Assembly (NCBI RefSeq): GCF_041146795.1 | Contig: NC_135167.1 | Span: 32,727,954 to 32,791,953, forward strand | Source: Maylandia zebra | Lineage: Eukaryota > Chordata > Actinopteri > Cichliformes > Cichlidae | Direction: 5' to 3' | Length of the DNA: 64,000 nucleotides | Part shown: positions 2,367-63,957 of the stretch, in pieces | How the letters are laid out: each line of letters opens with the position of its first letter | How positions within the stretch are numbered: position 1 is the stretch's first letter | The notes under the pieces: model-generated | What the model saw: only the letters and a program-made list of their open reading frames with translations | Database searches by the model: none | What the model was told of the DNA's origin: nothing | Made by a program: the position numbers and the translations under genes

Positions 2367-3418
2367 TTAAATAAAGAAATCATAAAACCTGTATTTTGTA
2401 TTCACTCCGGTTATCACTATCTTATATCAAAACTGATGATCTGAAATATATAAGTGTGGTAAATATGCAAAAAAAACTAAGAAAAGACGAAAGGGGCAAA
2501 TAATGGTGTGACCAACCTTAATAACTTTATGTGATGTATATTAAATTCAATGCACAGTTTCTGTTTCACCTCAGAGAGGAACAAGATTACATCTATGTAT
2601 TTGGACATGAATTTTACTGCCTAACAGTGCAACCTGTCAAGAACTGTGTGATTCATTCTGAAATATCTCTGTGCTCCTTTCACCCTCAGAAATCCTCGTT
2701 TCAAGACATGTCTCACCAGCAGGTGCTCTTCCAAGTTGTCACTTGGGCTGTCAGCTATTGTGACATTCAATTACTCTTTCAGTGGCTGCCATCACAAAAG
2801 TGCCTCATCTAGGGCTTAGGAGGTCACTCCATCCCTCTTCTGATTGGCTGATTTGGCCTAGTCAAGAGAGCAAGTTTTTGCAGCCTGAAATGAGACACTG
2901 AGTGCATCTGACAGCATCACGAGTACAGTGCAACAGGACCTGCTCTATCTCATATTTTTCAGCTTCTGTGTGCACGTGTCAAGGCATTTATGTGTGTTTC
3001 TGTTCATTTGTGTATGTGTAGTATTGGGTATTCACTGACAACCATAGTTGGTCATAATTATAGAAGTGAATACCTCTCCGACACAAAAATCTAGCAATAA
3101 AATTTCTCATGTTGTCAGTATTGTTGTTGCCTTGACCTCTGTCTCAACAGACCTTATCAGATATGTTACTTTTCCTTATCACAGTAATATTATATAGGGT
3201 AACTGTAACTGGACACATTTTGGCTTAGTGTTGTTGGCAAAATACATGTTTATGCTATATTTACATAAATATCAATATAGTGCTTGTGCCACGCAGAGCC
3301 ACCAGTAACTACGCTGCTTCTATAAAGTGAAAATGAAAAGAGCATGCAGCTCCACTCAATAATGTTTACAAACACTCTAAGATGAATTGCTCATGTTTTA
3401 AAAACATAACTTAATACT
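2367..3418. other. Background DNA, no gene seen
   Basis: A 93-codon open frame at 2531-2812 shows no domain, splice signal or family resemblance and is probably chance. Nothing else is supported. Confidence 0.45.
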
Positions 3419-3426
3419 GTTATTAT

Positions 3427-4868
3427 CAGTGTTAGGAAGGTTACTTTTAAAATGTATTCCATTACAGAATACAGAATACATGCCCCAAAATGTATTCTGT
3501 AACGTATTGTAATGACCTGGCTGGGGTTGTTAGCCAGGTGCATTCTGGGTATTGTGTTGTCTGTGTTTTCTATCGTTCTGCTAGTTCCTATGTGTTTGAT
3601 TCGCATGTTGTGTTAGTGTTATGTTAATGTAAGCCACAGTGAAGTTGATGTGTATTCTGTGGAGTGGGTTGAATTGGCGTGGTTGGCTGACACCGCGACT
3701 CTATGTGGTGGGAGCGCGATAGGGGTTCGGTGTCAGCAGCGTTACGTTGTTGTAGAAAAAGATGGTAAATAAACGCCTGGTGTGAACCACTACTGCCTCC
3801 TGCTGGATTATTTGGGGATTACCAGTCCGCTGCTGAGACGCTCTGGGTCGTGCGGTGTATGAGGCACGAGCGCTCTCCATTCATTGTGAAGTTTAGCGAT
3901 AGCTGCTAGCGCCCCGCTAGCCGTTTAGCTAGTGAGCAGTTTAGCCAGTTCAGCTCCCCAAACCCACGGTCGTTACAGTATTCTGTTACGTTACTCAATG
4001 ACAGTAACGTATTCTGAATACTTTGGATTACTTAATATATTATCAGGCTTTTTACAACAACGTGAATGTAGTACTATTGCTGTGTGATTTATTACTGTTA
4101 CTGAAGGTCCGCGACTCCGAACTGTAGTAAAGGGACCTCTGACTAAAACGTCGGGGTCCCTGTCGGCTCGTAGCCGAAAAATAGCTTTACTTTGTTGTGT
4201 GGGTCAACTTTTCTTGCGAGAGACAGAGAGAGGCGTTGAAAGGCTGCTCCAACGGAACTTATTGTTTCGGAGGAAAACACGAACACGGTGTACAGTCGAG
4301 TCTTAATAGCTTACTTACAACTGGGCTCGTCAGGCACTCTTCTTGGCTGAAGTGGTTATTATTATATTTACATGCTTCCAGCTCCCGTTTTTGCTCGATG
4401 ACAACTCGTACCTTTCCACTCCCCTTTTTCTCCTCCTCGCGCTCACAGACCCCTAAGGTGTATGGCAGGTCATTCTCCCTGCAACACGGACTACACTGCC
4501 CATGATGCTACATTCTTTAGAGCTATGCTTGTAGCATTCTGCCTGTTAGCTTAGCACAACAACAACAACAACGAAAAGGCGCTCTCTCACCCAGGAAACA
4601 CACAGTCGCAGAGAGAGAGAGAGAGCGTCGCCCTGTAACCATGGCAACCGTAACGCTGCCGCCTGGAACAACAGGACGTAGCTGTCAAACAAAACCCGCG
4701 ACAATATGAAACAGGAAAGTACCACAGTGTAATCCATTTATTTCAACAAAGTAACTGTATTCTGAATACCACCTTTTTAAATGGTAACTGTAACGGAATA
4801 CAGTTACTCATATTTTGTATTTTAAATACGTAACGGCGGTACATGTATTCTGTTACTCCCCAACACTG
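3427..4868. mobile_element. hAT-type non-autonomous transposon (with nested solo LTR)
   Basis: Ends are CAGTGTTAGG on the left and CCCCAACACTG on the right (imperfect inverted repeats), flanked by the perfect 8-bp duplication GTTATTAT at 3419-3426 and 4869-4876. Both ends carry many subterminal copies of GTATTCTG/CAGAATAC, the probable transposase-binding array. Without the nested LTR the element is about 970 bp. No transposase is encoded; open frames inside (for example 4197-4505) look like chance. The 8-bp duplication and the CA..TG ends are the hAT signature. Confidence 0.85.
3508..3977 (+). mobile_element. Solo LTR nested in the hAT element
   Basis: A 470-bp block interrupts the left subterminal region of the hAT element. 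It begins TGTAATGACC and ends GGTCGTTACA, an imperfect inverted repeat with the TG..CA ends of long terminal repeats. It is flanked by the direct repeat GTAT (3504-3507 and 3978-3981). AATAAA at about 3769 can serve as an LTR polyadenylation signal, which suggests plus orientation. No internal retroelement sequence remains, so this is best explained by recombination between two LTRs. A 4-bp duplication is compatible with Ty3/gypsy-type or retrovirus-like integration; the family is not resolved. Confidence 0.75.
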
Positions 4869-4876
4869 GTTATTAT

Positions 4877-5984
4877 ATATAATGATTCTCTTTGTAGCAG
4901 CTGTGCTTAGAAAGAAATAAAAATCATGCAGAAGCTTGATTGTGACAAGTGGCTCAAATCATCAGACCAGCATCAAGTCAAGGCAGTAGGTCATCTGAAA
5001 AAAAGGAAAGAAAATAATTAATTGCACAGAGTATTTTGTGTTTTCTTTGACAGACCACTTATTAGAACATCCACGTACAAAAACACCACCAAGATATCTA
5101 ATACAGCCTTCCCTTTTTTCACCTGTTTGCCTCCATATTTTCAAGGCTTGACAATAACCTATCAGCAAAATTTCTGTTCCCCAACCACCTGATTAAATGA
5201 TGCTTATGAGGATGAGGAACTGAATGAGGAAGTATTGTGAATTATGGCGAGTTATCCTCAAAAGGACATAGAATATAGATACTGTATTCACTGAGGTCCC
5301 AATCAAACATGTTCATAAAGCTCAACGCAGCAAAGCAATATGATTCTAGATTATTGAAAATTTACCACCATGTGAATCCCACTTCTGTTATAATGGAAAC
5401 ATAATGTGATGGTGTGTTGAAAGTGTCTGGTTGTGGGTTTTTGGGAAGATATTTTTAACCTCTTTCAGAAATATGTGGCACAACAGAGTAAGCATGGAAA
5501 GTCCTTTTTCATTTTTTAATTTTTAGGACTGGATTTTTCATGGGGTATTTGTCATCCCCACGCCAGGCAGACGTGCTTTAATGAAGTCCCATTATGTCCT
5601 CTCTTGAATACGTACTTCATCAGTAGCAAACTGAAAACATTATAGTGATTTTTTTTCATGAAGGAGAAAAATCTTGCATTGCAGATCTTTTCTTTGACAC
5701 TCTCACTCTGGAGTACAAGTTCATTTTGCATAACCTCTACACTGTCAACAAGTATGCTATTGGTTGCCAACCTGACATGCCACCTAGGAAACTACAGACC
5801 CTTCAAAGGTTAATTGCTAACAACTGCTATGTCAAAGTCAGCGACCCAGTTCTCATCAACAAGGATGATCCGCCACATCAAAAACAAAGAAATGAAGAAA
5901 AAAAGCTCTGTCCAGAGCTTACACAAAAAAGTGGGTAAAAAACTTTTAAAAAACACTGCACTGTGTGTTGCAGTCTGTCAACCA
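4877..5984. other. Background DNA, no gene seen
   Basis: Overlapping open frames on both strands at 5552-5938 have no recognised domain and no splice-supported extension. No repeat boundaries are visible. Confidence 0.4.
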
Positions 5985-6175
5985 TACAGGGAGTGCAGAA
6001 ATATTAGGCAAGTTGTATTTTTGAGGAATAATTTTATTATTGAACAACAACCATGTTCTCAATGAACCCAAAAAACTCATTAATATCAAAGCTGAATGTT
6101 TTTGGAAGTAGTTTTTAGTTTGTTTTTAGTTTTAGCTATTTTAGGGGGATATCTGTGTGCGCAGGTAACTATTAC

Positions 6176-6196
6176 TGTGCATAATTATTAGGCAAC
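6176..6196 (+). other. Inner transposase-binding repeat, left end
   Basis: The motif GCATAATTATTAGGCAA repeats most of the outer terminal sequence (ATTAGGCAA). A matching inverted copy is at 7337-7357. The function as an inner binding site is inferred from the IR/DR organisation known in Tc1 elements. Confidence 0.7.
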
Positions 6197-6314
6197 TTAA
6201 CAAAAAACAAATATATACCCATTTCAACTATTTATTTTTACCAGTGAAACCAATATAACATCTCCACATTCACAAATATACATTTCTGACATTCAAAAAC
6301 AAAACAAAAACAAA

Positions 6315-7318
6315 TCAGCGACCAATATAGCCACCTTTCTTTGCAAGGACACTCAAAAGCCTGCCATCCATGGATTCTGTCAGTGTTTTGATCTGTTTAC
6401 CATCAACATTGCGTGCAGCAGCAACCACAGCCTCCCAGACACTGTTCAGAGAGGTGTACTGTTTTCCCTCCTTGTAAATCTCACATTTGATGATGGACCA
6501 CAGGTTCTCAATGGGGTTCAGATCAGGTGAACAAGGTGGCCATGTCATTAGTTTTTCTTCTTTTATACCCTTTCTTGCCAGCCACGCTGTGGAGTACTTG
6601 GACGCGTGTGATGGAGCATTGTCCTGCATGAAAATCATGTTTTTCTTGAAGGATGCAGACTTCTTCCTGTACCACTGCTTGAAGAAGGTGTCTTCCAGAA
6701 ACTGGCAGTAGGACTGGGAGTTGAGCTTGACTCCATCCTCAACCCGAAAAGGCCCCACAAGCTCATCTTTGATGATACCAGCCCAAACCAGTACTCCGCC
6801 TCCACATTGCTGGCGTCTGAGTCGGACTGGAGCTCTCTGCCCTTTACCAATCCAGCCACGAGCCCATCCATCTGGCCCATCAAGACTCAATCTCATTTCA
6901 TCAGTCCATAAAACCAGTCGAGATATTTCTTGGCCCAGTCTTGACGTTTCAGCTTGTGTGTCTTGTTCAGTGGTGGTCGTCTTTCAGCCTTTCTTACCTT
7001 GGCCATGTCTCTGAATATTGCACACCTTGTGCTTTTGGGCACTCCAGTGATGTTGCAGCTCTGAAATATGGCCAAACTGGTGGCAAGTGGCATCTTGGCA
7101 GCTGCACGCTTGACTTTTCTCAGTTCATGGGCAGTTATTTGGCGCCTTAGTTTTTCCACATGCTTCTTGCCACCCTCTTGACTATTTTGAATGAAACGCT
7201 TGATTGTTCGATGATCACGCTTCAGAAGCTTTGCAATTTTGAGACTGCTGCATCCCTCTGCAAGATATCTCACTATTTTTGACTTTTCTGAGCCTGTCAA
7301 GTCCTTCTTTTGACCCAT
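6315..7318 (-). pseudogene. Tc1-family transposase, frameshifted (DD37E spacing)
   Basis: The gene encodes a cut-and-paste transposase of the Tc1/mariner superfamily, which binds the inverted repeats and moves the element into TA. The start ATG is at 7318. The N-terminal part (to 6893) has two helix-turn-helix regions, including LKRDHRTIKRF. A one-base shift near 6900-6925 moves the frame, and the rest reads from about 6920 to the stop at 6315. The catalytic residues are the D of WTDE just after the break, the D of MQDNAPSH and the E of NPIENLW. The last two are separated by 37 residues, so this is DD37E rather than the usual DD34E of Tc1. A glycine-rich GGGVLVWAG stretch lies between. Apart from the single shift the reading frame is open, which suggests a rather recent insertion. 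Confidence 0.93.
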
Positions 7319-7538: not shown

Positions 7539-9756
7539 TAAAGAATCCAATATGTGTGGAGCTCTGCACCCCTTTTCCTAATTTTACTGTTAGTTAAACC
7601 AGTGCTGCAATGATACACCAGTGAAAATAAGCTCAGTTTGAAGGCGAGAAACTGATATTATTAAAGGTCCTGTTAATTTGTGGTATGCTGCACAGACTTT
7701 CCAATCATAAAATCTCAAATTCAGGATTTTTTCTTTACCATCCATCCTAAAAGCAAAAGACAACCCAACTGCCAAGAGATGGAAGAGCAAGTCTTCAACC
7801 CACACCTGACCTATGTACCACTACTAAATCATTTACAGACCTTATTTGAGTGACCTGTGTCTTTAGCATACTTTCTAAGACATTTACTCTCATTTATTTT
7901 GTAGAAAGGCAAATAGTTTTAACTCACGCTACAACTAGTTTTAGTCTACTAGAATCAAGAAGTTACAGCTGCCAGGGAGTCAAATGCTAAATTTCTCCTG
8001 TGTCACTTTATCAAGATTGATGTGGCAATGTGACACTTTTGGCCCAGTCTAAAAACAAATAAATTTGATACCTTTATCACAGATCATTAACCCAATATGT
8101 CATATTTTGTCTTCCATCAGACTAAAAATAGCTAAAGTTGAGAACACCAAGATAAAGGGTAAAAAAACCCTCACTTTTTGTGTTTTTCTAAGTTTCAGTT
8201 TTCATTGGCCATCTGCTCTCAATAAACACTAGAACCAATGTCAATTTTACACTAGCCCAAGCAACTGAATTTTCAGTTATCTATAACTGGACATTTGTAG
8301 CAAAATGATGTTCAGGGAGTATAATACAATATTCATTAACGTGCAATCATTTAATTACTAAATACAGTTCAGAGCTGGAGCAAAAGGGAATGTCGCTTAT
8401 TTAAGGTGATTCCAGCATAGTCCCTGTGCCACACAATACGTTTATCATAACTGCAGGTTATTGTAAAGCATTAAAATCCATTTAATGGTTTTTGAAAATG
8501 GTTTTTGAATTCGACAAATTAAAAATATTCACTTAAAATATCTGTACAAAATCTGTACTAAATTGTGTGCCAATACATCCAATAACTCTTGTGATATTGA
8601 TCTGAATATCTGAAAATTCTGGCCCTTTGATCATGTTAGACACACTTGGGGGATGTCCAAGTCAAAGCATTGATCCCATAGGCATAACTTAAAAAAAAAT
8701 TCTTGTAGGGATAAAAAAAATCTCCTTTGATGTTATAGCACTAGTCTAGTCATGTTTTGTAATCTATCAGTTGTCTTTCTGGACCTAACAAAGTGATCGG
8801 TTTTGTTAGCTATACCTGTTTACTGCTTGTTAGTGCAAATACCTAATCAGCCTATATGGTAACAAAGCAACCCAGTGCATTTGGGCATTTCAGAGAAGTC
8901 TGAAATAGAGAAAATATCCAGTGAGCTGCAGTTCTCTGTTATTCTCAGAGGTCAGCAGAAAATGGTCAGACTGCTTAGACTTGAGAGGAAAGCAACAGTA
9001 ACTCAAATGACCATTCATTATAGCCAAGCTATGTAGAAGAGCATCTTTGAATGCATCACATGTTGAACCCTGAAACTGATGGCAACAACAACAGAAGGCA
9101 CACTGAGTGTCACTGCTCTCAGCTACGAATAGGAAACTGAATCTCCTTCGTCTGGGCTCACTAGAATTGGACAATAAAAGACTGTCAAAAAATTGTGCTT
9201 TGTATGAAGAAGCAACGTCTTTAAGTATCAAGCAACTTAAAGAAGTCCAGACGCTTTTAAAGCGTACACTTTCTTTTCTTTTCTTCTTCTTTTCTTTCCA
9301 AGTTCCTTAGACTACGATGACCTGGATGACTGAGAACCGTCACAGACATATGAAGAGCCTGGGTTTCTGCTTCAACATTCAGATGGTAGGGTGAGAATTT
9401 GAAAGCAACATGAACGCATCGATCCATCCTGACTCTTTCTAGTGGTTGTGGTTTAATGATGGGTGGGAGATTTTCTTGGTACACTCTGCGCTTCTTACCA
9501 GCTGAGTAGTGTTTAAATGCCACAGCCTACCTGTGTATTGCTGCTGACCTAATGCATCTGTTTAAAACCACAGTTCATCCATCCTCTGCTTTCATCAGGA
9601 TAACACACCATGTCGCAAAGCTCATATCATCTTAGTCTGAACTCGTTTTTTTCAACAGTTCACTGTGCTCAAATAGCCCCCAAAGTCACAAAATTAAATC
9701 CAGCTGAGCATATCTGGGATATGCTGTAACAGGAGATTCCCATCATGGATGTCCAG
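7539..9756. other. Background DNA, no gene seen
   Basis: AT-rich sequence with only short open frames (for example 8890-9231 and 9257-9523, both minus). None has a recognised domain or consistent splice sites. A pyrimidine tract lies near 9270-9298. Confidence 0.4.
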
Positions 9757-13066: not shown

Positions 13067-13072
13067 TATAGT
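13067..13072 (+). repeat. Target-site duplication TATAGT (left)
   Basis: TATAGT directly precedes the left terminus and is repeated directly after the right terminus at 23954-23959. Chance agreement of six bases at exactly these positions is about 1 in 4000. Confidence 0.8.
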
Positions 13073-13116
13073 AGAGAGTGATATTATACCCCTTTCGTCA
13101 AAAAAAGTGACAGGTT

Positions 13117-13155
13117 ACTTCCGGAGCTCATTAATTATTCATGAGCTCCGGAAGT
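13117..13155. repeat. Subterminal perfect hairpin (left arm)
   Basis: ACTTCCGGAGCTCAT (13117-13131) and its exact complement ATGAGCTCCGGAAGT (13141-13155) flank a 9-base loop, 44 bp from the terminus. The mirror copy is at 23871-23909. Further CCGGAAGT motifs follow, which suggests a binding array. Confidence 0.9.
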
Positions 13156-13246
13156 CCGGAAGTAGGAAGTAATTAAATTATCCCCTAATTAAATTAGCCC
13201 CTAATTAAATTAGCTCCGGATGTCCGGAAGTAGGAAGTAATTAAAT

Positions 13247-13325
13247 AATAAAAATATGATATTCATAAAAATATGATATTCATAAAAATATGATATTCAT
13301 AAAAATATGATATTCATAAAAATAT
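13247..13325 (+). repeat. 17-bp minisatellite (left arm)
   Basis: Four to five head-to-tail copies of AAAATATGATATTCATA. The mirror array is at about 23702-23782. Confidence 0.85.
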
Positions 13326-13439
13326 AATTGATTATTTAGAAAGTTTCTTATATATCAAAATAGCATTCTTTTATTTCTTTAAGCAATTAAAAAATTTATT
13401 TATTTTTTTATGCTCAAAAAACGCCATCTGGTGGTGGGT

Positions 13440-13520
13440 CAGTGTGTGCGCGCGCCCGCGCGCGCCCGAGGCTGTGTGTCTGGGCGCGCGGGGGCGCGCC
13501 CGTGTCTCCGGACCGTGCTC
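13440..13520. repeat. CG-rich alternating tract (left arm)
   Basis: A run rich in GCGCGC and GGGCGCGC interrupts otherwise AT-rich DNA. The mirror copy is at about 23508-23585. Alternating GC could adopt unusual DNA structure or act as a CpG-rich promoter. No reading frame is supported. Confidence 0.7.
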
Positions 13521-13706
13521 TCTCGGGCTCTGTGCTCATGTGTTTAAAAATGTATTAAACCATATTAAAATTGTTTAGTTAAACTTGTGCTTTTGTAACG
13601 TTCAGTATGGCCACAAACACATGCTGCATGCCTTGGGGGAAAACTTTATTTAGATTTATATGCATTTGTAGATTTAGAATAAAACTCATACTCAGAAAAA
13701 ACAACT

Positions 13707-14067
13707 CGCGATCCCCGCAGCCCCCTTAACCTAATCCTTAGATACATAAGCAGGGAAAACTCCTTAAAAAACCCTCCGCTATTTCTCCAAAACCCTACAA
13801 TAACTTGTTAGGGTACCCCCTCTATTCCCAAAACCTTATATTCGATAACAGGGAAAATCCTGAAAAAATCCTTAGTCTTTTTTCTCAAATTCAGCGCCCC
13901 GCGGCTCCCTTCATGCTCAGCCAAACAAAGCCAAAACTCCTTTTAAAAATTTCTCCGCGATTTCTCCAAAACCCCTAGAATAACTTGTTAGCTACCCCTC
14001 TATTCCCCCCAAAAAAAGCGCTATAATCCAAAAACATTGGGAAAGCTCCTTACTCTTTTTTCTTCAA
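13707..14067 (+). repeat. Two degenerate ~180-bp tandem units (left arm)
   Basis: Two units share CTCCTT..AAA, TTTCTCCAAAACCC, AATAACTTGTTAG and CCCTCTATTCCC in the same order (13707-13885 and 13897-14067). The mirror region in the right arm is about 22950-23320, where one piece is further duplicated. The role is unknown. Confidence 0.7.
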
Positions 14068-14599
14068 AAACTTGCCTCTTGCTAGCTACCTCTAAAATTC
14101 TACGCAGAGTCTAAGTTCTACCTCGCTCTTAATCGCACCGACCCGCAACAGCTTCCAGAGCACAATTTTTTCCTGCTTGTTCGCTCCCCGCTCTGCTCCC
14201 GAATGCGCTGCTTACCTCGTTTGAAAATTCCCCCCTTAGACCAACTCCGCCTCACTGCGCCCCGCTGCCAATCACATAACCCTTGCACCGCTCCCTTCGC
14301 ACCCCGGTTAGCCAATCCACTCCAGGTCTGATTTTACGATCTCCCGCTGATGTTAAGACTATCTTCGAACCCCCAGAAGACCCCTGCCTTCAGCCATATC
14401 AACAACTGGAACCGCTCAGACTGCTTGCGACTTCGCATAGGGAGCGGCCGATTTCAACAGCAACTTGCGTCTCTTTCCTTATCCGCATATCATTCGGTAA
14501 GTGTTAATCTTGCTCTCTAACTACATTTTTGCATTTTCCTTTTTACCATTCTGTCAATCCTTTCATTTAAATAAATAAATAAATATCACAATGGTTTGT

Positions 14600-14700
14600 A
14601 ACAGGTACAATACACCATCCATCCATCCATTCGCCTCCACTTATCCTTTTCTCAGGCTCGCGCAGTGCGCTGGAGCCTATCCCACGTGCAATACACTTTA
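14600..14700 (-). repeat. Dispersed-repeat fragment inside the arm
   Basis: CCATCCATCCATCCATTC followed by CACTTATCC and GGAGCCTATCCCA is the (GGAT)n-tailed form seen at 3' ends of fish non-LTR elements. The mirror copy is at about 22315-22385. It is a short piece with no coding content. Confidence 0.5.
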
Positions 14701-14749
14701 AAATATATATAAGCTCCACTTTTAACCCCCGTAAAAGTTTATACATTAC

Positions 14750-14942
14750 ATGTCTACATCACCTATCATGGCCTCATCGGGTATCTCATATCATCTTGTT
14801 ATTGTTATGTTATGCTCCTTTGATATTTTGCTAGTTTGCGTGTTTTAAAACTCTTTTTGTTTTTCTTTATATTTTTAGACCCAGATGTGTTAACCTGATC
14901 CCTGCGAAACACCAGCTCTGCGTGGATTTTGACCGCGAGTGA
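14750..14942 (+). pseudogene. Left-arm copy of the spliced gene, middle exons deleted
   Basis: This is the mirror of the right-arm gene at 21593-22248. The first coding exon (ATG at 14750, donor at 14781) and the last exon (acceptor before 14879, stop at 14940-14942) are intact. The exons that lie between them in the right arm are absent, removed together with parts of both introns at a junction near 14790. A TATATATAAG motif remains upstream at about 14703-14712. Confidence 0.6.
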
Positions 14943-17029
14943 CCGGATGTTGTTTCCGGCCTGAGGTTGCCTGAAATGCCGTGAGGCTCGTTTGAAAGAT
15001 TGCGCCCGAGACCAACTCCGCCTCCAAGGCATGCCTACCTTTAGCTGCCACCAGTGAGATATCAGAGCCGGGCTCCACATATCCAATCAGGAGCACGAGC
15101 AAGACAGCTTTTGCAGACTCTCCAGAAATATACAAGTCCTTACCAACTGCTCTGCAACCCAGTGTTTCTGGTCCCCTCACTAACATCGCTTTTTGAGATA
15201 TTTTTTATGAACCACCAAAAAAGCAATTTTACCCCACAGACTGGGTCTGAGGGCAGCAGCGGGGACAAATGATTGTAATGAAGCGACGGACATTTCATGG
15301 CTGGTCTTGCATAATCGTGAGTTATTATGTCATATGGTGATAAGTACATAGTTTTGCAAGAGGCATACAAGCACTGTGGAAAAAGTAATCATAAAACTGT
15401 TTTTGTGAACACCCTACGTTATGCTTTAAAAAATGTGATACATGTAATGTGATCATCAAAGAACATGATTTAAAAAAAAAAACTTTTATTCTTATGCTTT
15501 TAAAGTATGTCAGATTATCTTAAAACACTTATTTGTATGTTATAATGTTTTTCTTACACCATGTGTAATTTTTATAGACACCGTATTCATTGTATCAATG
15601 TGTAATTATGTATCTTTGATAAATAAATAAAATATTTAATCTTGTATTTGTGTACTTTCTGGTGATTCAATAAAAAATTAGTCACATATCGCTCTGATAA
15701 ACACAGATGGCTGAAAGAAATGTTTGATGGAACAAAGGAAACAAGTGTCTTGCTGCTAAACTTTTAAGTCACCATGGTTTAAATGAGAAAGTCTGTATGT
15801 AAAACATGAAAAACTCCATATCAGTGATATCTACAAAGGTGTACTCATTTCTTTGTAATGGTACTTTACTGTTCCAATGAAACAAAAAGAAAATCTCATT
15901 TTTAAAGTACATTTTTCGGCCATCCTGACCTATTTTCAGGGGCAAGAATGTTGATGTTAGACTGTGTTTTAAATCAGGTTGTGATCTTAAACTAACTATC
16001 ACAGCACTGATTTCAGTTGTAATGTCAATTAGAATCCCAATTTGGCTTTTCTCCAGTCAGTGTTATGGTGAAATTTAACTTGTTCTTTTGTGTAATTGCA
16101 CATGGCCCAGCAAAGGACCCCTTAGTAAACTGTACAGCATAAGTTTTCAATTCACTTTTGTCAGAAAACTTCACAGTATGAGAAGTTACAGCACAGTTTC
16201 TCCAAACGTGTGGTTCTTTTTCAGCCAGCGTGCTTTTAGAGCATCTACATTAGCTCATGTAGTAAAAGTACAATCAGTAAGTGTACTTTAACATTTGAGA
16301 TTCCGAGTCACTCTTGCTTAGATCATGTGAACTATATCATGAACCTTTTTTTGTATAATGCATTAAACGTGTTCAAATCAGTTTATTTTCAATTTATTTT
16401 AACTAATCTAGAGACAAGCAACTCCTTTTTAGCTTCTGTTATGTATTTACCTCTCACACCTTAATCTAGATGTTAGTGTTCTCAGAGTTAACATGTCTCA
16501 TGTTGCCATGTTGTATTTCTAATACCCAGCCTCAGTGTTCGCCCTGTTGACCCTCAAATCCAAACACCAATGATCTAGATATTCACAACATTCATAAGGA
16601 GATTCTTAAGGTCTTAAGTTTTGTTGTTTTTATGTTTTACAAAAAAAAAACTTCACATTTTTTATATTTTTAAACGAAAGTGACATGCAAGGATATTTTT
16701 CTTTAGTGATGTTGCTTCAGCAATCTCAAATACTAATTATTCTGGGAATTTTTATGGTCAAACTATGTGATTTTCCAAATGTGTGTGTGTGTGGAGTAAA
16801 ATGACCTTGTTCTTATGATGTTGTCACCGTGAATCATTTAGGATTAACAACACAAATTGTATCGATAGCAGAAACAGTCTTATAACTTATAATTCTCTCA
16901 CGTTACCGCTAGTTTTACAAACGCAGTCTTCTTCAGCTCTGTTTATGTAGCTTTTATGAAACTGATTTTCCATAGTACAAGTAGAATTTAATTTTTCTTT
17001 GCTCTCCAGTATAAATGCAATAATTTGCA

Positions 17030-18560
17030 GGCTTTTTACTGAAACTCTCACAATGCAACACTCAATGCTCAGAGCTTCATATATCAACAGCTCTGAAAAT
17101 ATCTTCTTTTTTAAAGTAATGTAGGACAGGATCTCTCACTCTCTGTGTCTCAAAAAAACCCAACTAAACTGGCAATCACCACTAAACAAATGAAAGTAGT
17201 TTATGGCTTTTTTATCAGCTGCATTTCTTTCATTTATGTATTGATCCCATTGTTTATTGGTAATGCTTTTAGGTCACTGTTTTAGCATGTCTGCCTCACA
17301 CTCCATTTAAACAGTTTAACAGATAGTGGGGTCTGGTAAGGAAGTTGGGGGGAAGCAGACAACTCCACAGGAAGAGTCTTTTTGTCTTTTCTCCACTGTA
17401 AAAGATAGCAAGGCAGTGTGAAACTTTCTTTGCGGGAAAGACAAAACTGAGAGCCATGCTAGGCTCAGTGAGAGACTCTGCTCACCCTCTGCCCCAGCGA
17501 TGGCAGTCCCTCACCAAGCTTGATTTCTGTTCTTTGTCTTGATTAAAGAATGTTAGCTACCGCTCATCGCTTGTCTGCAGGCTTTATTAAACGGAAAACT
17601 TCCACAACAACCTCTAAACAGTGGTTTATGGCTTTTTGTCACCTGCAACACCATGTAACACTTGGATGTTAGATTCTTTTACCAGTCAGTGTTGTTAGCC
17701 CCAACCCCCAGGCTCCAGCTGTCTGAGCTCTAACCCTGGCTGCCAAATGTCCCCCTGAGGCCTTTGTGCCTTTTACCACCAGACTAAGTTTGTAGTCCTT
17801 TCTACTAATATTATTTTATTTTTTTATTATAGCACAAGTTTCAGTTAGGTTACTACTTTGACTTCCTCAATTTGAGCACATTTCTGACCCGATACTTTAT
17901 CAAGCTTTTACTCGAGTGTTTTTGACACTAGCAGCTGTACTTCTACTTAAGTGAAAATTGCCTGCAATTTTGCCACCTCAGTTGCCACTTTTCTGGAGTT
18001 TGTACACTTTTTATATTGAAACGTTCAACGTTTTACGTGTTATCCTTGATAACAGTTCTAAACAAGTTAACTTTCTTCACTTCAAAGTAACCCAAAAAAG
18101 AAACTATATGTCCAGTTCTCTTTACTCCAAACCTGGTTTAAGGCTATGCTGTTGTTGTGATATGGCCATACAAATAATATTAAGTTTAATTAATCTTTTA
18201 AAAAAATGGCTGCTTCATGGCTACCTGTTCAGAGAATTTGCAGACTTTTATGGAAACTGTCACAATGTAACACTCTCACTGTCAAAACAGGGTTGATCCA
18301 TGTTTCTATGAACACTGATTAATATATCAACAGCTCTGAAAATCCTTTTTTTTTTTTTTAAGTAAAGCAGAACAGGATCTCTGTATCTCTAAAAATCCCA
18401 ACAAAACTGGCAATCACCTCTAAACAAATGGAAGTAGTTTATGGATCTTTATCACCTGCAACACCATGTAACACCTAGATGTTAGACTCTTTTACCATCA
18501 CATTTGCAAGGGTTTATGTGTTATCCTTGATCACAGTTCTAAATAAGTTAACTTTCTTGA
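17030..18560 (+). repeat. Degenerate internal repeats of the centre
   Basis: The block at about 17030-17240 (with ATCAACAGCTCTGAAAAT and ACTGGCAATCACC) recurs at about 18238-18450. The block with CACCTGCAACACCATGTAACAC at about 17638-17690 recurs at about 18447-18500. The block with TGTTATCCTTGAT at about 18037 recurs at about 18510. They are diverged copies in the same orientation, so the centre grew by old duplication. Confidence 0.75.
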
Positions 18561-19053
18561 CATAAAAGTAGCCCAAAGAAGACAAATATATGTCCAGTTC
18601 TTTTTTACTCCAAACCTACTGATCGGAAAACATTATGTGATGCTGGAAGTTTTCAACCTATCCATCTGCAAAACAAGTTTACCTGTAAGCCAACACATTA
18701 GACGTAAGCAAATTTGTGAAATTCCTGAACAATGTGCTTTGTGGAGTAGCAGTAGTACTAGAACTAGTACTAGTAGTCCTAGTATTCTGCAGCAACCAGG
18801 CTTCAAGAGTGATCACTCTTCTGGCTTTCAAATGGTGAAAACATGTCACAGTCTTAACCGCAAATCAGAAATGTTGGTAAATTTAAAAAGGAATTTAAAC
18901 GTCAGCTTTGACATAGACACAGACTTTATTAATGCCACACTCAGGAAATTCACATGTTACACATGATTTAGCTCACCTGCTAACTCCCCAGAGCAATAAC
19001 CACATCAGCATCATTAGCCTGAGTGTTGATCCTCCAGGTGAGTGAGTGGAGTT

Positions 19054-19055
<2 letters not shown>

Positions 19056-19099
<44 letters not shown>
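19056..19099. repeat. (GT)n microsatellite
   Basis: About 20 perfect GT units. Confidence 0.95.
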
Positions 19100-19435
19100 T
19101 CAGAGGTGAAGCTGCTTTCTGCAAAGTCTCATCAACAACATCTTTAGAAACAAACATCAACAACCAGGAAGAGTCTAAAAGCACTAAATATGAAACAGAC
19201 CATTTACCATACCCAACACTGAGCTCCTGCACAGTCAGATGGAGTGAAACATAATGTCCCAGTGGTGTTCTGTTGGATTTAGCAGGTGAGCGTTGTTGCC
19301 CTCAACAGTCAGCAAAACAAGTCATAAAACAATAAAAGAGGCTCCCTTATCAAGAGCATCCCAGCACTGTAGTTCCATTACAATCAGTTTCCTTTATTTT
19401 ATCTTATCATGTCAGAGGCCAACTGAAACCAAGTC

Positions 19436-19506
19436 CACCTATATAAAAACACCCCATCAGACACACAGTAGTTTCCTCAGCACTTCACAACTGCCGCAAG
19501 GTATAG
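19436..19506 (+). promoter_or_regulatory. TATA box followed by a splice donor
   Basis: TATATAAAAAC at about 19439-19450 is followed about 30 bp on by CAGACACACAG, a plausible start, and by GCCGCAAG before GTATAG at 19501. The arrangement is that of a short first exon. No downstream exon could be assigned. Confidence 0.3.
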
Positions 19507-19775
19507 CGTTTTAACTTTTTATTTTTTCGGATCCCAGACACAGCGGTGTGAGGTAGTTAGCACACAGTTTGGACGTGTAGAAAACATTGCTTGTTTGGAA
19601 CACATCAGCAGAGAGGTAGAGTTCATAGCTGTTCATAAGAGTTTAATTTAATCAAACCTCATTTTACGGATCTAAGTGGCTCCTCATCACTAGCCAATTC
19701 ACCATTTTATTTAAATATCTGAATTTTCGGAATGAGGATCCAAGCGGGACACAGAGGCTGCTTTAACGCACCAGA

Positions 19776-19958
19776 ATGCAAATATAAATAAAAGCCTGAC
19801 TATCCTGAGAGCCTAGCTGCAGCGAGACCTTTCTTTCACACGGATTCCTGGATGTGCGTCGGATCCGACTTTGCTACCCGCACAGAGCGTTTCTGACAGT
19901 CGGGCGCTGCTTATACAATAGAGAAAAGCAACAATACACCGTGTTTCTCTGCTCCAAG
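19776..19958 (+). promoter_or_regulatory. Octamer/TATA promoter and candidate first exon
   Basis: A perfect octamer ATGCAAAT (19776-19783) overlaps AATATAAATAAAAG. The next ~150 bases are more GC-rich and end at CTCCAAG before GTAAGG (19959), a good donor. It reads into the right arm. No coding exon with a matching phase was found, so the target gene is unknown. Confidence 0.35.
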
Positions 19959-21592
19959 GTAAGGATGTCTGTTATACCCAGCGCATAAATGTCTCTGTGT
20001 TAACGCTGATTATTCAAACCCTGTTGAAAATGTGACACATTTGTTATCCAAAAACATTTCCTCTAAATTTGCAAAGTTACTGATTTAAAAATTATATTTT
20101 TGAATTTTTAATTGCATGACAAACATACAATAGACTCTTGAGCATATTTATATAGCTAAATACACACACGTTTGATGCATTATACAAAAAAAGGTTCATG
20201 ATATAGTTCACATGATCTAAGCAAGAGTGACTCAGAATCTCAAATGTTAAAGTACACTTACTGATTGTACTTTTACTACATGAGCTAATGTAGATGCTCT
20301 AAAAGCACGCTGGCTGAAAAAGAACCACACGTTTGGAGAAACTGTGCTGTAACTTCTCATACTGTGAAGTTTTCTGACAAAAGTGAATTGAAAACTTATG
20401 CTGTACAGTTTACTAAGGGGTCCTTTGCTGGGCCATGTGCAATTACACAAAAGAACAAGTTAAATTTCACCATAACACTGACTGGAGAAAAGCCAAATTG
20501 GGATTCTAATTGACATTACAACTGAAATCAGTGCTGTGATAGTTAGTTTAAGATCACAACCTGATTTAAAACACAGTCTAACATCAACATTCTTGCCCCT
20601 GAAAATAGGTCAGGATGGCCGAAAAATGTACTTTAAAAATGAGATTTTCTTTTTGTTTCATTGGAACAGTAAAGTACCATTACAAAGAAATGAGTACACC
20701 TTTGTAGATATCACTGATATGGAGTTTTTCATGTTTTACATACAGACTTTCTCATTTAAACTGGTGACTTAAAAGTTTAGCAGCAAGACACTTGTTTCCT
20801 TTGTTCCATCAAACATTTCTTTCAGCCATCTGTGTTTATCAGAGCGATATGTGACTAATTTTTTATTGAATCACCAGAAAGTACACAAATACAAGATTAA
20901 ATATTTTATTTATTTATCAAAAGATACATAATTACACATTGATACAATGAATAAGGTGTCTATAAAAATTACACATGGTGTAAGAAAAACATTATAACAT
21001 ACAAATAAGTGTTTTAAGATAATCTGACATACTTTAAAAGCATAAGAATAAACGTTTTTTTAAAAAAAAAATCATGTTCTTTGATGATCACATTACATGT
21101 ATCACATTTTTTAAAGCATAACGTAGGGTGTTCACAAAAACAGTTTTATGATTACTTTTTCCACAGTGCTTGTATGCCTCTTGCAAAACTATGTACTTAT
21201 CACCATATGACATAATAACTCACGATTATGCAAGACCAGCCATGAAATGTCCGTCGCTTCAATCATTTGTCCCCGCTGCTGCCCTCAGACCCAGTCTGTT
21301 GGGTAAAATTGCTTTTTTGGTGGTTCATAAAAAATATCTCAAAAAGCGATGTTAGTGAGGGGACCAGAAACACTGGGTTGCAGAGCAGTTGGTAAGGACT
21401 TGTATATTTCTGGAGAGTCTGCAAAAGCTGTCTTGCTCGTGCTCCTGATTGGATATGTGGAGCCCGGCTCTGATATCTCACTGGTGGCAGCTAAAGGTAG
21501 GCATGCCTTGGAGGCGGAGTTGGTCTCGGGCGCAATCTTTCAAACGAGCCTCACGGCATTTCAGGCAACCTCAGGCCGGAAACAACATCCGG

Positions 21593-22248
21593 TCACTCGC
21601 GGTCAAAATCCACGCAGAGCTGGTGTTTCGCAGGGATCAGGTTAACACATCTGGGTCTAAAAATATAAAGAAAAACAAAAAGAGTTTTAAAACACGCAAA
21701 CTAGCAAAATATCAAAGAAGCATAACATAACAATAACAAGATGATATAGCAAATCTTGCCTGTCCCCGGCGGACAGGCGCAAGTTTTTCCCAGAGGGTTG
21801 CGGGAGAGAACAAGCTCCGACGGGAATGGAACTGGGGCCAGATGAAGCAGGGCGATCTAGCGTAGAGAGCAAATACTCTCTGTCCCGTGTGGAGAGACGA
21901 ATATTCTTTCCTGTGGATCGCACAAGCACTGGTGGTGAATAATTCGGGGAACTCGTACCAATAAAGGTGTCCAAGTCAGAGATATCTAGAAAGTTTGATA
22001 AAAATGAAAAAAGAGGGTAAATGTTTTGTTTTTCTTGTACAATTAGCTGTTAAGAAGGGGAACAAGAATGAACCAAACCTACCAATTCGATCGAGAGACT
22101 CAAAAAAAGAGGAGTTGAGCAGGTTTATCTCAGAGTCTGAAAAGAAATAACATCGAGTATTTACAAACAGTAAAAATATAAACATTATATGAACAAGAGT
22201 GAGAAAAAATGAGATACCCGATGAGGCCATGATAGGTGATGTAGACAT
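21593..22248 (-). CDS. Unrecognised spliced gene in the right arm
   Basis: Four exons can be proposed on the minus strand. Exon 1 runs 22248-22218 (ATG, 31 bases, donor GTATCT). Exon 2 runs 22136-22083 (acceptor TTCTTTTCAG, donor GTAGGT). Exon 3 starts at 21985 after TTTCTAG. All three join in one frame. Exon 3 either continues to a stop at 21687 with a hydrophobic tail (LVIVMLCFF), or leaves by a GC-AG intron at 21759 to exon 4 (21656-21593, stop at 21595-21593), again in frame. The product would be about 125 residues. Exon 2 is rich in acidic and hydrophobic residues. Exon 3 contains a repeated motif, GKNIRLSTRDREYLLS and GKNLRLSAGDRQDLLY. I recognise no family. The agreement of phase at each junction is the main support; expression is unknown. 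Confidence 0.5.
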
Positions 22249-22283
22249 GTAATGTATAAACTTTTACGGGGGTTAAAAGTGGA

Positions 22284-22298
22284 GCTTATATATATTTT
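22284..22298 (-). promoter_or_regulatory. TATA box for the right-arm gene
   Basis: Read on the minus strand the site is AATATATATAAGC, about 40 bp upstream of the proposed ATG at 22248. That spacing fits a TATA promoter with a very short leader. A copy exists in the left arm at 14700-14713. An alternative is that the gene starts further out, because a strong donor (GTAAGTG) lies upstream at 22501. Confidence 0.4.
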
Positions 22299-22494
22299 AA
22301 AGTGTATTGCACGTGGGATAGGCTCCAGCGCACTGCGCGAGCCTGAGAAAAGGATAAGTGGAGGCGAATGGATGGATGGATGGTGTATTGTACCTGTTAC
22401 AAACCATTGTGATATTTATTTATTTATTTAAATGAAAGGATTGACAGAATGGTAAAAAGGAAAATGCAAAAATGTAGTTAGAGAGCAAGATTAA

Positions 22495-22715
22495 CACTTA
22501 CCGAATGATATGCGGATAAGGAAAGAGACGCAAGTTGCTGTTGAAATCGGCCGCTCCCTATGCGAAGTCGCAAGCAGTCTGAGCGGTTCCAGTTGTTGAT
22601 ATGGCTGAAGGCAGGGGTCTTCTGGGGGTTCGAAGATAGTCTTAACATCAGCGGGAGATCGTAAAATCAGACCTGGAGTGGATTGGCTAACCGGGGTGCG
22701 AAGGGAGCGGTGCAA
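22495..22715 (-). other. Open segment ending in a strong splice donor (both arms)
   Basis: On the minus strand an open frame of about 70 codons without an ATG ends at CATTCG followed by GTAAGTG (intron from 22501). The left-arm copy ends at 14496/14497. It may be a non-coding or coding upstream exon of the gene at 21593-22248. The intervening sequence shows no convincing acceptor before the TATA box, so the link is unproven. Confidence 0.3.
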
Positions 22716-23701
22716 GGGTTATGTGATTGGCAGCGGGGCGCAGTGAGGCGGAGTTGGTCTAAGGGGGGAATTTTCAAACGAGGTAAGCAGCGCATTCGGG
22801 AGCAGAGCGGGGAGCGAACAAGCAGGAAAAAATTGTGCTCTGGAAGCTGTTGCGGGTCGGTGCGATTAAGAGCGAGGTAGAACTTTAGAGGTAGCTAGCA
22901 AGAGGCAAGTTTTTGAAGAAAAAAGAGTAAGGAGCTTTCCCAATGTTTTTGGATTATAGCGCTTTTTTTTTGGGAATAGAGGGGTAGCTAACAAGTTATT
23001 CTAGGGGTTTTGGAGAAATCGCGGAGAAATTTTTAAAAGGAGTTTTGGCTTTGTTTGGCTGAGCATGAAGGGAGCCGCGGGGCGCTGAATTTGAGAAAAA
23101 AGACTAAGGATTTTTTCAGGATTTTCCCTGTTATCGAATATAAGGTTTTGGGAATAGAGGGGGTACCCTAACAAGTTATTGTAGGGTTTTGGAGAAATAG
23201 CGGAGGGTTTTTTAAGGAGTTTTTATTGTAGGGTTTTGGAGAAATAGCGGAGGGTTTTTTAAGGAGATTTCCCTGCTTATGTATCTAAGGATTAGGTTAA
23301 GGGGGCTGCGGGGATCGCGAGTTGTTTTTTCTGAGTATGAGTTTTATTCTAAATCTACAAATGCATATAAATCTAAATAAAGTTTTCCCCCAAGGCATGC
23401 AGCATGTGTTTGTGGCCATACTGAACGTTACAAAAGCACAAGTTTAACTAAACAATTTTAATATGGTTTAATACATTTTTAAACACATGAGCACAGAGCC
23501 CGAGAGAGCACGGTCCGGAGACACGGGCGCGCCCCCGCGCGCCCAGACACACAGCCTCGGGCGCGCGCGGGCGCGCGCACACACTGACCCACCACCAGAT
23601 GGCGTTTTTTGAGCATAAAAAAATAAATAAATTTTTTAATTGCTTAAAGAAATAAAAGAATGCTATTTTGATATATAAGAAACTTTCTAAATAATCAATT
23701 A

Positions 23702-23782
23702 TATTTTTATGAATATCATATTTTTATGAATATCATATTTTTATGAATATCATATTTTTATTAATATCATATTTTTATTATT
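23702..23782 (-). repeat. 17-bp minisatellite (right arm)
   Basis: Mirror of the array at 13247-13325. The outer units carry a G-to-T change (TTATTAATATCATAT), so the arms have begun to diverge here. Confidence 0.85.
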
Positions 23783-23870
23783 TAATTACTTCCTACTTCC
23801 GGACTTCCGGAGCTAATTTAATTAGGGGCTAATTTAATTAGGGGATAATTTAATTACTTCCTACTTCCGG

Positions 23871-23909
23871 ACTTCCGGAGCTCATGAATAATTAATGAGC
23901 TCCGGAAGT
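23871..23909. repeat. Subterminal perfect hairpin (right arm)
   Basis: Mirror copy of the hairpin at 13117-13155, with the same 15-bp arms. Confidence 0.9.
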
Positions 23910-23953
23910 AACCTGTCACTTTTTTTGACGAGAGGGGTATAATATCACTCTCT

Positions 23954-23959
23954 TATAGT
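23954..23959 (+). repeat. Target-site duplication TATAGT (right)
   Basis: Direct copy of 13067-13072, immediately outside the right terminus. Confidence 0.8.
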
Positions 23960-57554: not shown

Positions 57555-59230
57555 CAGAGGTGGGACCAAGTCATTGTTTTGCAAGTCTCAAGTAAGTCTC
57601 AAGTCTTTATCCTCAAGTCTCAAGTCAAGTCTCAAGTAATGTCAGGCAAGTCAGAGTCGAGTCTCAAGTCACTGGTGTAAAAGTCCGAGTCAAGTCACAA
57701 GTCTGAAACTTTGAATTTCAAGTCCTTTCGAGTCTTTAAAAAAAAAAAACGAAAAAATAATGTTGCAGTTATGCTAAATGTAAATATTAGACCATGTAAT
57801 TTTAAAATCTGTGTTTTTCTCAACACATGACAAAATAGTGAACTTAGAAAATATACAAAAATTGTGAAATTGCACCTCTTTAAAATGCAGCTCAATTAAA
57901 CCTAGCTCCAAGAATAATTTTCACCAACAGTTCTGAGATAAGCTGCATGTTATTCTTGGATGCGGTTTTAGGACCAGCTTTAAAATCGCATGACAAAAAT
58001 ATCATACACATTAAAAAAAACTGTATCACCAACGTAGCCTGGACAACATTTGCTAGTTAGATGAAGTCAGCTATCTCATCTTAGCATATTTATATGCATA
58101 TTTATAATTATACGGTTCTTGGAGTGAGTGCATACACTCATGAAGTTTAGTAACTTCAGGTCACTGCAACAAGCCCAGGTACAGTTTACCGACGGATGGG
58201 TGCAGGACCTTGAAATGCACCGTGTAGAACGAAAGACCATCGTACGTATCATAAGTTTACCAGTCTCACAAATTGTCGTCATAAATACACATTCCTTAAC
58301 CGTTTATTAATAGGACCTTTGAGCTCAACGGTAATTAATTAGTAGTGGAAATAATTTCTGGTACCCATCACAGAAATGTAGCAGTGACAATAATACTGTA
58401 TGCTGTAATCGTACTGGACAATTAGTGATACAAAAAACCTGTTTTATCCTGTGAATAAAAGTATATGTTTTTGTCAATGTGCCATAATAACAGAGGCGAA
58501 ACGCAATATTGTGTCAGGACAATTCACTATTTATGCACAACAAACAAAGGAGCGACAATTTCTGTTCAGCGCCAGACTTGCTTGTAACCTATATCACCAA
58601 TTATGTTAAGAAAAATGACGTATTAACTACTAAAAAACACTGACCTTCGTGTAAATGCTTGGAGCAGACTAACCTGTGAGCTGGAGTGTTCTGGGACGTT
58701 ATATTTGATCTTTGAATGGCTGCAATCCAGGCCATCCATCGCGTCTTTGTTACTTCGGAAACATGGCTTGAACAATTTCTCTTCAACAACATAATCCGAT
58801 AACAACCGATCTCTTTACCCGTCGGCTTCCCGTGGCTGTCATGCGACCGGCTATTGCAGTTAATAATACAACAGCTTCTTGACATTTTTGTGTTTCTTTT
58901 TATCGCTGTATAACTGATTTTAATTGAAAGCCTGCGTGCGCTAGTACCGCTTGCCACGAGTTCCCAGAATCCTTTGCGGTTCTACCCGTGAATGACGTCA
59001 CATTTTCAATCTCTATATAATATGCATGTTAAATTTTATATTTGGGGTAAAATATCAAGTCTTTTCAAGTAAACCGGTTCAAGTCCAATTCAAGTCCCAG
59101 GTCATTGGTGTAAAAGTCCAAGTCAAGTCACAAGTCTTAGAACATTTTTTCAAGTCAAGTCTAAAGTCATAAAATTAATGACTCGAGTCTGACTCGAGTC
59201 CAAGTCATGTGACTCGAGTCCACACCTCTG
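57555..59230 (-). mobile_element. P-like THAP-domain transposon, internally deleted
   Basis: The ends CAGAGGTG and CACCTCTG are flanked by a perfect 8-bp duplication TAATTTTA (57547-57554 and 59231-59238). Both subterminal regions contain long arrays of CAAGTC and its complement (more than ten copies each side), plus CGAGTC variants at the right end. The only coding remnant is a THAP exon on the minus strand. An 8-bp duplication together with a THAP domain fits the P superfamily; a hAT origin would be expected to carry a BED finger instead. Confidence 0.8.
58645..58885 (-). pseudogene. THAP-domain first exon of a transposase
   Basis: From the ATG at 58885 the frame encodes a C2CH zinc-finger THAP domain: the N-terminal cysteines of SRSCCIINCNSR, a middle tryptophan (TRWMAWIAAIQRS) and the C-terminal VCSKHLHEG with its C..H pair. 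The THAP domain binds the element's DNA. The exon ends at 58645 before a GTCAGT donor, and no further transposase exon lies in the element, so it is a remnant. The frame is open upstream to 58957, but the ATG at 58885 sits at the usual distance before the first cysteine. Confidence 0.75.
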
Positions 59231-63130: not shown

Positions 63131-63957
63131 ATGTCAGATTTGGATGACTTAATAAGACTGTATTTCAGACTTTCTTTCAGTAACAAAGAAATACTTTCAA
63201 TTTTAGCACATAGTCATCAGACAATTATAAGTGTTCGAACTCTAATTTGTAAAAGACTTGGGCTTTTTAGAAGGAAGAATCAATCAAACTTGGAGGAGTG
63301 CTAGCCTTTGTCCAACAAGAGATCATGACAAATGGACAGATGCAAGGTTATCGTTGGCTACATCTACGTGCAATTCAACATGGATTTGTGGTGTCACAAG
63401 ATACTGTAAGATGCATAATCAAATTGCTTGACCCTCAAGGTGTGGAACTGAGACGAGCTCGACGGTTGAGAAGACGACAGTACAGCTGCAGAGGGCCAAA
63501 TGCTCTCTGGCACATGGATGGCTATGACAAGTTGAAACCATATGGTATTGCTATCAGTGGCTGCATAGATGGTTTTAGCCGCTATGTTTTATGGATGGAG
63601 GCTTATACTACAGACAGTGACCCTAAATTGATTGCAAGTTATTTTCTGAAAACAGTTTCATGCATCAGCGGATGTCCAGAAAGGTTACGTGCTGACCGAG
63701 GTACCGAAAATGGTTGTGTCGAACAAATGCAGATGTTTTTACGGAGAAACCACACAGACAGTTTTGCAGGTGAGAAAAGTTTCCTTTACGGAAGAAGTAC
63801 GGCCAACCAACGTATAGAAGGATGGTGGGCTACCCTACGCAAACAGAGTGCACAATTTTGGATGAACTTATTTCAAACTTTTCAGGATGATGGCCACTTC
63901 ACAGGGGATTTTTTGGACAAAAGTCTTATCCAATTCTGCTTTCTCAATCTTATTCAG
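63131..63957 (+). pseudogene. Integrase-core transposase, frameshifted
   Basis: The gene encodes a DDE integrase-like enzyme expected to cut and join transposon DNA. It begins MSDLDDLIRLYFRLSFSNKE at 63131 with a helix-turn-helix-like N-terminus, breaks by one missing base near 63298 and continues to 63957. The core has the first aspartate in LWHMDGYDKLKPYG, the second in ERLRADRGTENG and the glutamate in NQRIEGWW, 40 residues after the second. IDGFSRYVLWMEAY and HFTGDFLDKSLIQFC are further family hallmarks. At 63957 the exon ends TTCAG before GTAAAAG, a donor, so a downstream exon lies outside the window. The protein family is abundant in teleosts as 'uncharacterised integrase-domain' genes. 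This copy is one base away from open. Confidence 0.85.

Follow-up and report, generated by a model that had tools for sequence, protein, structure and literature searches.

According to the account of the vertebrate elements by Barreat and Katzourakis (2021, PMC8097293), as far as its main text goes, Mavericks, also called Polintons, have (AG)3//(CT)3 or (AGT)2//(ACT)2 ends, 6-bp target-site duplications, and two inward-pointing gene modules. That main text contains no words beginning with “palindrom-” or “autonomous”. In the relevant parts of two papers (PMC8097293, PMC7805220), Maverick particles are described as not observed, and Maverick replication is therefore largely inferred from the genes. 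In the open-access full-text literature, palindromic or non-autonomous Mavericks were not the subject of any paper among those listed, as judged by title and abstract, with subscription papers and repeat databases outside the scope of the search. Here we describe an insertion in a 64,000-nt stretch of the genome of Maylandia zebra (contig NC_135167.1, positions 32,727,954–32,791,953), the whole of which is called “the window”. The insertion, a Maverick of 10.9 kb at window positions 13073–23953, is called the window element.

Helper-dependent inverted duplications of one end that carry other DNA are represented by adenovirus defective genomes in which the left end is duplicated and by the symmetric recombinant (SYREC) of adenovirus type 12 (Ad12). 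Adeno-associated virus (AAV) is a parvovirus and is not protein-primed. In adenoviruses, packaging is initiated from the left end, according to the pertinent section of PMC5409498, and the snapback genomes of AAV are described, in part of PMC8235507, as defective double-stranded forms that result from replication errors. Foldback and Galileo are transposons with long inverted repeats, and Galileo is classed with the P element in the corresponding section of PMC3573991.

The M. zebra genome contains gene-less elements that have Maverick ends, 6-bp duplications, and mirrored arms, and one of them turns round at a parental inverted repeat. The most probable reading is that of a palindromic gene-less Maverick family with a fold-back origin and helper-dependent spread. 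Palindromic gene-less Mavericks, which are present in at least three lineages of this one genome, are a new form of Maverick. In the following, C with a number (e.g. C4 or C22) designates the contig that carries a copy, and A, B, and C alone designate element families; the window copy belongs to family A.

A gene-less element with Maverick ends

The window element starts with AGAGAGTGATATTATACC and ends, inverted, with CTCTCT, i.e. it has (AG)3...(CT)3 ends, and TATAGT abuts the outside of both termini (13067–13072 and 23954–23959). A preliminary description, made from the letters of the window, had reported this 6-bp duplication and inverted arms of 3.3–3.8 kb. Both were recovered, the duplication by direct reading outside both ends and the arms at 13073–16372 (3.3 kb) and 20166–23953 (3.8 kb). 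Its statement that the termini are identical inverted copies starting with AG holds for the ends, but the arms are not identical throughout. They form 11 ungapped pairs at 97–100% identity, the gapped alignment has 15 mismatches as well as indels across ~3.3 kb, and a block of ~0.46 kb is present in the right arm and absent from the left arm. Each host flank is single-copy in the 962-Mb assembly, the joined flanks match nowhere else, and a search of this assembly for a paralogous empty site gave none (two of two candidates scored). Chance is excluded, because the same termini form inverted pairs elsewhere, and those that were read have 6-bp duplications of their own.

The preliminary description had proposed a search for other genomic copies with the same termini, and many copies were found to end there. 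The first 300 bases of the window element have at least 79 genome matches (best 40 of 109 candidates scored). Among the matches listed, 41 longer terminal matches gave 17 inverted pairs and 8 of the 41 stayed single; the 17 pairs represent 16 elements, because C24 was counted twice. A PolB gene is enclosed in three of these 16 and in none of the remaining 13 (five PolB places were tested computationally, the remainder was compared by eye). The three PolB-enclosing copies have a length of 16.6 kb and share the terminal repeat with the window element. Pfam analysis of one of them revealed PolB (DNA_pol_B_2, 5e-38), an A32-like ATPase, an adenovirus-type protease, and an integrase with a chromodomain. 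In addition, it has an open reading frame (ORF) of 448 aa, without Pfam match, where the gene order leads one to expect the double jelly-roll major capsid protein.

The terminal repeat of the window element is homologous to that of the three autonomous copies in the same genome. Together with the PolB-side subterminal sequence, it matches the gene-bearing Mavericks mostly at 91–98%, with short pieces at ~71%. The end motif (AG)3//(CT)3 or (AGT)2//(ACT)2 occurs in the window element and its siblings. Matching 6-bp flanks were present in all 24 copies read at both ends, i.e. 16 of family A (13 gene-less, 3 autonomous), 2 of family B, and 6 of family C, whereby the match in C13 is obtained if an additional AG is allowed at the left terminus, and the C11 flank is a run of C and thus a weak match.

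Within the window element, no Pfam match was obtained for the selection of 8 ORFs scanned, 5 of them in the cargo, and no PolB match lies inside. PolB, integrase, protease, and ATPase genes, the coding hallmarks of Mavericks, were found in the scanned sibling; the window element is filed as a non-autonomous derivative and not as an autonomous Maverick, because none of them was seen inside. Judged by descent and ends, the window element is thus a non-autonomous Maverick (Polinton). The preliminary description had likewise seen no Polinton/Maverick protein, and the non-autonomous giant with Polinton/Maverick features that it considered is correct: the terminal repeat, end motif, and 6-bp duplication are those of the gene-bearing Mavericks of this genome. 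An unnamed type, its other suggestion, is not needed, as the Maverick ends suffice, and is ruled out by the Maverick ends held in common.

Several copies have unusual ends. The left end of the C13 copy has an extra AG between the target duplication and the terminus, perhaps because protein-primed initiation slid along the AG repeat. C22:48802838–48850904 has A-family ends, near-symmetric cargo, and matching CAGGGT flanks 48 kb apart, and is probably a palindrome with later insertions. Four places with A-type ends (C8:2746426, C21:33594631, C20:33356722, and C21:29495131) represent a terminal-repeat variant, in which another repeat (TTTATGACCCC motif) replaces the sequence after the first 38 bases. 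The copy at C7:21308659 has an integrase-side stretch near its left end and A cargo inside, a possible end exchange.

Palindromic family A copies with two PolB-side ends

Besides the window copy, seven gene-less A relatives were fetched, and all seven are near-complete palindromes of 8–14 kb. The arms of C22 (C22:42478899–42492011) have no mismatch in 6,511 aligned columns, and those of C21, C16, and C3 have 1 in 6,667, 5 in 6,630, and 8 in 6,356, respectively. The whole C13 element aligned with itself over 7,930 columns with 22 mismatches. The arms of the C24 A copy have 15 mismatches in 4,344 columns, plus 3 mismatches and 35 gap bases in a further 519 (92.7%), and those of C11 aligned in pieces at 95.8–99.4%, due to indels. 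The cargo piece 15777–16372 gave at least 18 inverted pairs and 4 singles (best 40 of 95 candidates scored). The distance from the end to the cargo was compared for the ten elements whose two ends and two cargo copies were all among the listed matches. It is equal to the base on both sides in six of them (C13, C16, C21, C22:42.48M, C3, and C7), unequal by 6–51 bases in C20, C8, and C22:48.8M, and 2,704 versus 3,192 in the window copy.

Unique sequence of the PolB side, past the 1.26-kb repeat, was present in the single tested arm of each of six A copies, and the integrase side matches these six arms over the terminal repeat only. The PolB-side stretch is mirrored by the opposite arm in A copies and was found in both window arms; in the A copies of C22 and C24, part of it is matched at 71% only, or deleted. 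The ~0.46-kb block is in the same state in both arms of six of the eight A copies. The numbers of cargo mismatches between the arms of one copy are 0, 0, 0, 0, 0, 1, 4, and 9, compared to a median of 8 between copies. The compared cargo is identical in C21 and C16, and likewise in C24 and C22. Five A copies have asymmetric cores of 465–539 nt, e.g. 473 nt in C16 and 539 nt in C3. The palindromy of the family, the duplication of a single Maverick end, and the mosaic nature of the window copy (see below) could not be seen by the preliminary description.

A turn-round inside the PolB gene

Family C has ends of the (AGT)2 type. A query with its PolB end retrieved elements that have the PolB end on both sides (best 40 of 72 candidates scored). 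Five of these were read at both ends, and all have matching duplications; C22:18825401–18847461 is a sixth candidate. The elements on C4 and C7 are palindromic across the 1.4–2 kb read at the centre. For those on C15, C5, and C24, which also have two PolB ends, the central 1.5–2 kb read is not self-complementary.

In the 12.5-kb palindrome on C4 (19470118–19482642), the PolB matches are mirrored on both strands about the midpoint. The palindrome turns within the PolB gene, at the 7-bp inverted repeat AGACTGC/GCAGTCT with a loop of 51 nt. An uninterrupted PolB copy, of which 601 bases were read, contains AGACTGC, then the loop, and then GCAGTCT. The palindrome tracks this copy to GCAGTCT and returns from AGACTGC, and 95 of 95 as well as 153 of 153 nt are identical. 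Such a turn-round is the signature that self-primed fold-back copying would predict. A turn at a parental inverted repeat, with parent sequence as the loop, was found for the C4 copy only. Other short loops have lengths of 53 nt (C22), 76 nt (C13), and 117 nt (C7), with perfect inner arms of 525–617 nt; for these three the loops alone were measured, and in the window copy the centre is replaced.

Duplication of the integrase end

The integrase ends of the three families were used as control queries. For family C, no inverted pair was found, and all matches past the terminal repeat were single (best 40 of 58 candidates scored). For family A, there were two inverted pairs among 18 matches (18 of 18 candidates scored), at C20:33390209 and C16:9148790. 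Their inverted arms are diverged and span 0.9 and 0.7 kb at 98% and 95%, respectively; one terminus is recognisable in the former and none in the latter. For family B, one element was retrieved (18 of 18 candidates scored), i.e. C11:766132–769792, which is 3.7 kb long and has terminal repeats and integrase ends on both sides. Because integrase-end inverted pairs were also found, either Maverick end can be duplicated, and the idea that the PolB end is the sole duplicated end is weakened by these controls (two A pairs and one B pair). The PolB-end class is more numerous, but independent origins are too few to claim a preference.

The cargo

When the 4.4-kb cargo past the Maverick end was compared with the autonomous pieces fetched, the sole match comprised 39 bases and was to a terminal-repeat motif. 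No Pfam match was obtained for the five cargo ORFs tried, and there was no Rfam match. A module in the centre of the family C element on C24 is 73–79% similar to the A cargo, and shorter stretches are alike in B arms. This module is 99–100% identical among the family C elements on C24, C7, C15, and C5, and it is found with 76–94% at further places and with 73–80% in A copies (best 40 of 186 candidates scored). Between the eight A copies compared, the outer cargo varies by no more than 0.9%. Because the module is shared across families at these identities, it is carried by more than one Maverick lineage and predates the A burst. In the C7 arms, the beginning of an integrase-side accessory ORF is present at ~72% identity. 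Capture of cellular DNA, as in the adenovirus SYREC, is unsupported as stated; the cargo partly resembles modules of other Maverick-ended elements, and no cellular source locus was found among the best 40 near-identical copies scored.

The mosaic window copy and family B

The architecture of the window copy can be followed from left to right. The Maverick terminal inverted repeat of ~1.26 kb, which occurs at both ends of autonomous A Mavericks, lies at 13073–14334 (+ strand; element positions 1–1262 match both ends). The PolB-side subterminal stretch of the left arm follows at 14335–14789 (+ strand); it matches the PolB-side end up to 14575, the remainder weakly or not at all, and it is devoid of the ~0.46-kb block. 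Over element positions 1–1503, the match is to the PolB-side Maverick end only. The outer non-coding cargo, with ORFs that have no Pfam match, extends over 14788–16372 (+ strand) and pairs in the arm alignment with the non-coding cargo of the right arm at 20166–21747 (− strand). The inner non-coding cargo of the left arm (16373–19300, + strand; element positions 3301–6228) is the inner portion of the left arm of the family, has relatives of 73–79% in family C elements, and is present in the arms of sibling palindromes; it is lost from the right arm of the window copy, which is without the inner 2.9 kb. The segment 19298–20166, identified by genome matches, is a centre fragment of the palindromic, Maverick-ended family B that replaces the original centre and the inner right arm. 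To the right of the right-arm cargo, the PolB-side subterminal Maverick sequence lies at 21748–22663 (− strand). It includes the block absent on the left, and element positions 8676–9243 and from 9351 onward match the PolB-side end, with 22316–22422 unmatched. The right terminal inverted repeat is at 22664–23953 (− strand), as defined by alignment to Mavericks. The preliminary proposal that the arms and a unique centre moved as one unit was thus correct with respect to a single mobile unit, but the centre is not unique.

The left-arm cargo of the window copy is closest to that of C24, C22, and the C11 right arm (2–3 mismatches), and the right-arm cargo is nearest to C16, C21, and C3 (5 mismatches); the two window arms differ at 9 sites. 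Tree support for this split into sub-lineages is moderate. The family B piece (866 bp) occurs with 94–100% over the whole query at no fewer than 10 further places (best 40 of 116 candidates scored), and its joins have overlaps of 1–3 bases, as determined by eye on aligned strings. As read from these alignments, the window copy is a mosaic, with arms from two A sub-lineages and a family B piece in its centre.

The family B copy C2:22493686–22516125 is a palindrome of 22.4 kb with (AG)3 ends and the duplication TCAATG, and its arm pieces are 94.7–99.8% identical; it is the one B copy in which palindromy was checked through the full length. The family B terminal repeat has no significant match to the A terminal repeat. 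The ends of two autonomous B Mavericks were read. The first has PolB on one side and, opposite, an integrase that is 63% identical to that of family A, and the second has an integrase piece on the same side as the first. The B palindrome matches the PolB side of autonomous B with >1 kb in both arms and the integrase side with ~450 terminal bases only. By eye, there are 17 or more B inverted pairs (best 40 of 84 candidates), four of which enclose a PolB match. The ends of the autonomous B copy C2:1278725 were not found with the exact string used, and it was left out of the 6-bp count.

At C14:9256537–9774209, five B-type inverted pairs of 9–11 kb lie within ~0.5 Mb, either a segmental duplication or a local burst. 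Elsewhere in the window, 57555–59230 contains pieces 96–97% identical to B-palindrome cargo, including an ORF with a THAP domain (58604–58981), 6318–6983 is a DDE_3 transposase remnant, and an rva_4/rve integrase-core ORF lies near the window end (63271–63981).

Origin and propagation

A fold-back origin could proceed as follows. While a Maverick is replicated by protein-primed strand displacement, a strand initiated at one of its ends (more frequently at the PolB end) would halt early. Its 3′ end would anneal to a short inverted repeat on the same strand and copy back to the end, and replication of the hairpin would yield a complete palindrome in which both ends are functional; its centre might afterwards be reshaped via microhomology jumps. 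The palindromes would then multiply with PolB and integrase borrowed from intact Mavericks, similar to the defective genomes of helper viruses, and the arms would be kept alike by re-copying of one arm from the other. The window copy would later have turned into a mosaic of two A sub-lineages and a family B piece.

Several points weigh against this scenario. Instead of a simple loop that would mark the turn-round of the founding A palindrome, five A copies show the asymmetric cores of 465–539 nt. The copies are so young that the contrasts within and between them rest on few sites. Three integrase-end inverted pairs exist (A-related and B), the family C elements on C15, C5, and C24 lack self-complementarity across the central 1.5–2 kb despite two PolB ends, and those on C4 and C7 were read at their ends and centres. 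Host enzymes that repair DNA by fold-back could produce such a junction as well. An extrachromosomal form, sought only as the exact terminus 20-mer in viral contigs, gave no match. Moreover, no integrase relative was confirmed in viral contigs with one close-relative query, a collection from which records of this or near genomes may be excluded.

Fold-back inversions are a known outcome of host repair, as described in a section of PMC7467729, and the palindromes could have arisen as composite transposons. A truncated Maverick and flanking DNA would have been inverted and duplicated in the chromosome and then mobilised by the Maverick integrase via two outward-facing ends. That much of the arm is not recognisable as Maverick sequence would fit, as would the integrase-end inverted pairs, since either end could be caught. 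We nevertheless consider a composite origin improbable: it would be needed in at least three Maverick lineages, the C4 turn sits inside the Maverick's own PolB gene, and no unmobilised ancestor locus was seen in a limited search of the best 40 candidates per query. Collapsed or mirrored contigs might also mimic palindromes, and the C22 arms without mismatch over 6.5 kb, in a single assembly without reads, would be compatible with such an artefact. This is very improbable, as the palindromes occur at many loci with different flanks, each one read having its own 6-bp duplication, the arms differ in C13, C24, C11, and the window copy, and the centres differ between copies. An IS3EU-like or unnamed transposon unrelated to Mavericks, suggested by the lack of a visible Maverick protein in the window copy, has a negligible probability, as the terminal repeat and PolB-side sequence match gene-bearing Mavericks, which already refutes it for family A.

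The fold-back origin with helper-dependent spread can be extended, tentatively and with considerable doubt, to a standing population of satellite-like Mavericks. Snap-back palindromes might keep a cis-acting, perhaps packaging, segment beside the PolB end, swap non-coding cargo among three helper lineages, and parasitise intact Mavericks like defective interfering genomes, possibly moving in Maverick particles.

In palindromes that turn at a parental inverted repeat, self-primed synthesis on a single strand would have left its trace in the genome, and the replication model could thereby be tested with assemblies. Gene-less families of 8–22 kb can arise from a large virus-like element; annotation of coding genes will miss them, and annotation of long inverted repeats could assign them to the wrong class. 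With their near-identical arms, the palindromic Mavericks are moreover long inverted repeats of a kind that tends to destabilise chromosomes.

Comparison with known systems

Like the palindromes described here, the defective genomes of adenoviruses, which are protein-primed relatives, have an inverted duplication of one end. In contrast to them, the palindromes are integrated, flanked by target duplications, and form transposon families. The snapback form of AAV genomes also resembles the palindromes, but in the part of PMC8235507 concerned it is not shown to form a transposon family. Foldback and Galileo share the long inverted terminal repeats (PMC3573991, corresponding section), whereas the termini found here are Maverick termini. 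In comparison with the vertebrate Mavericks as described in the main text of PMC8097293, the autonomous siblings in M. zebra fit the ranges of size and terminal-repeat length, while the window element is gene-less, with the same Maverick end at either side and arms of several kb.

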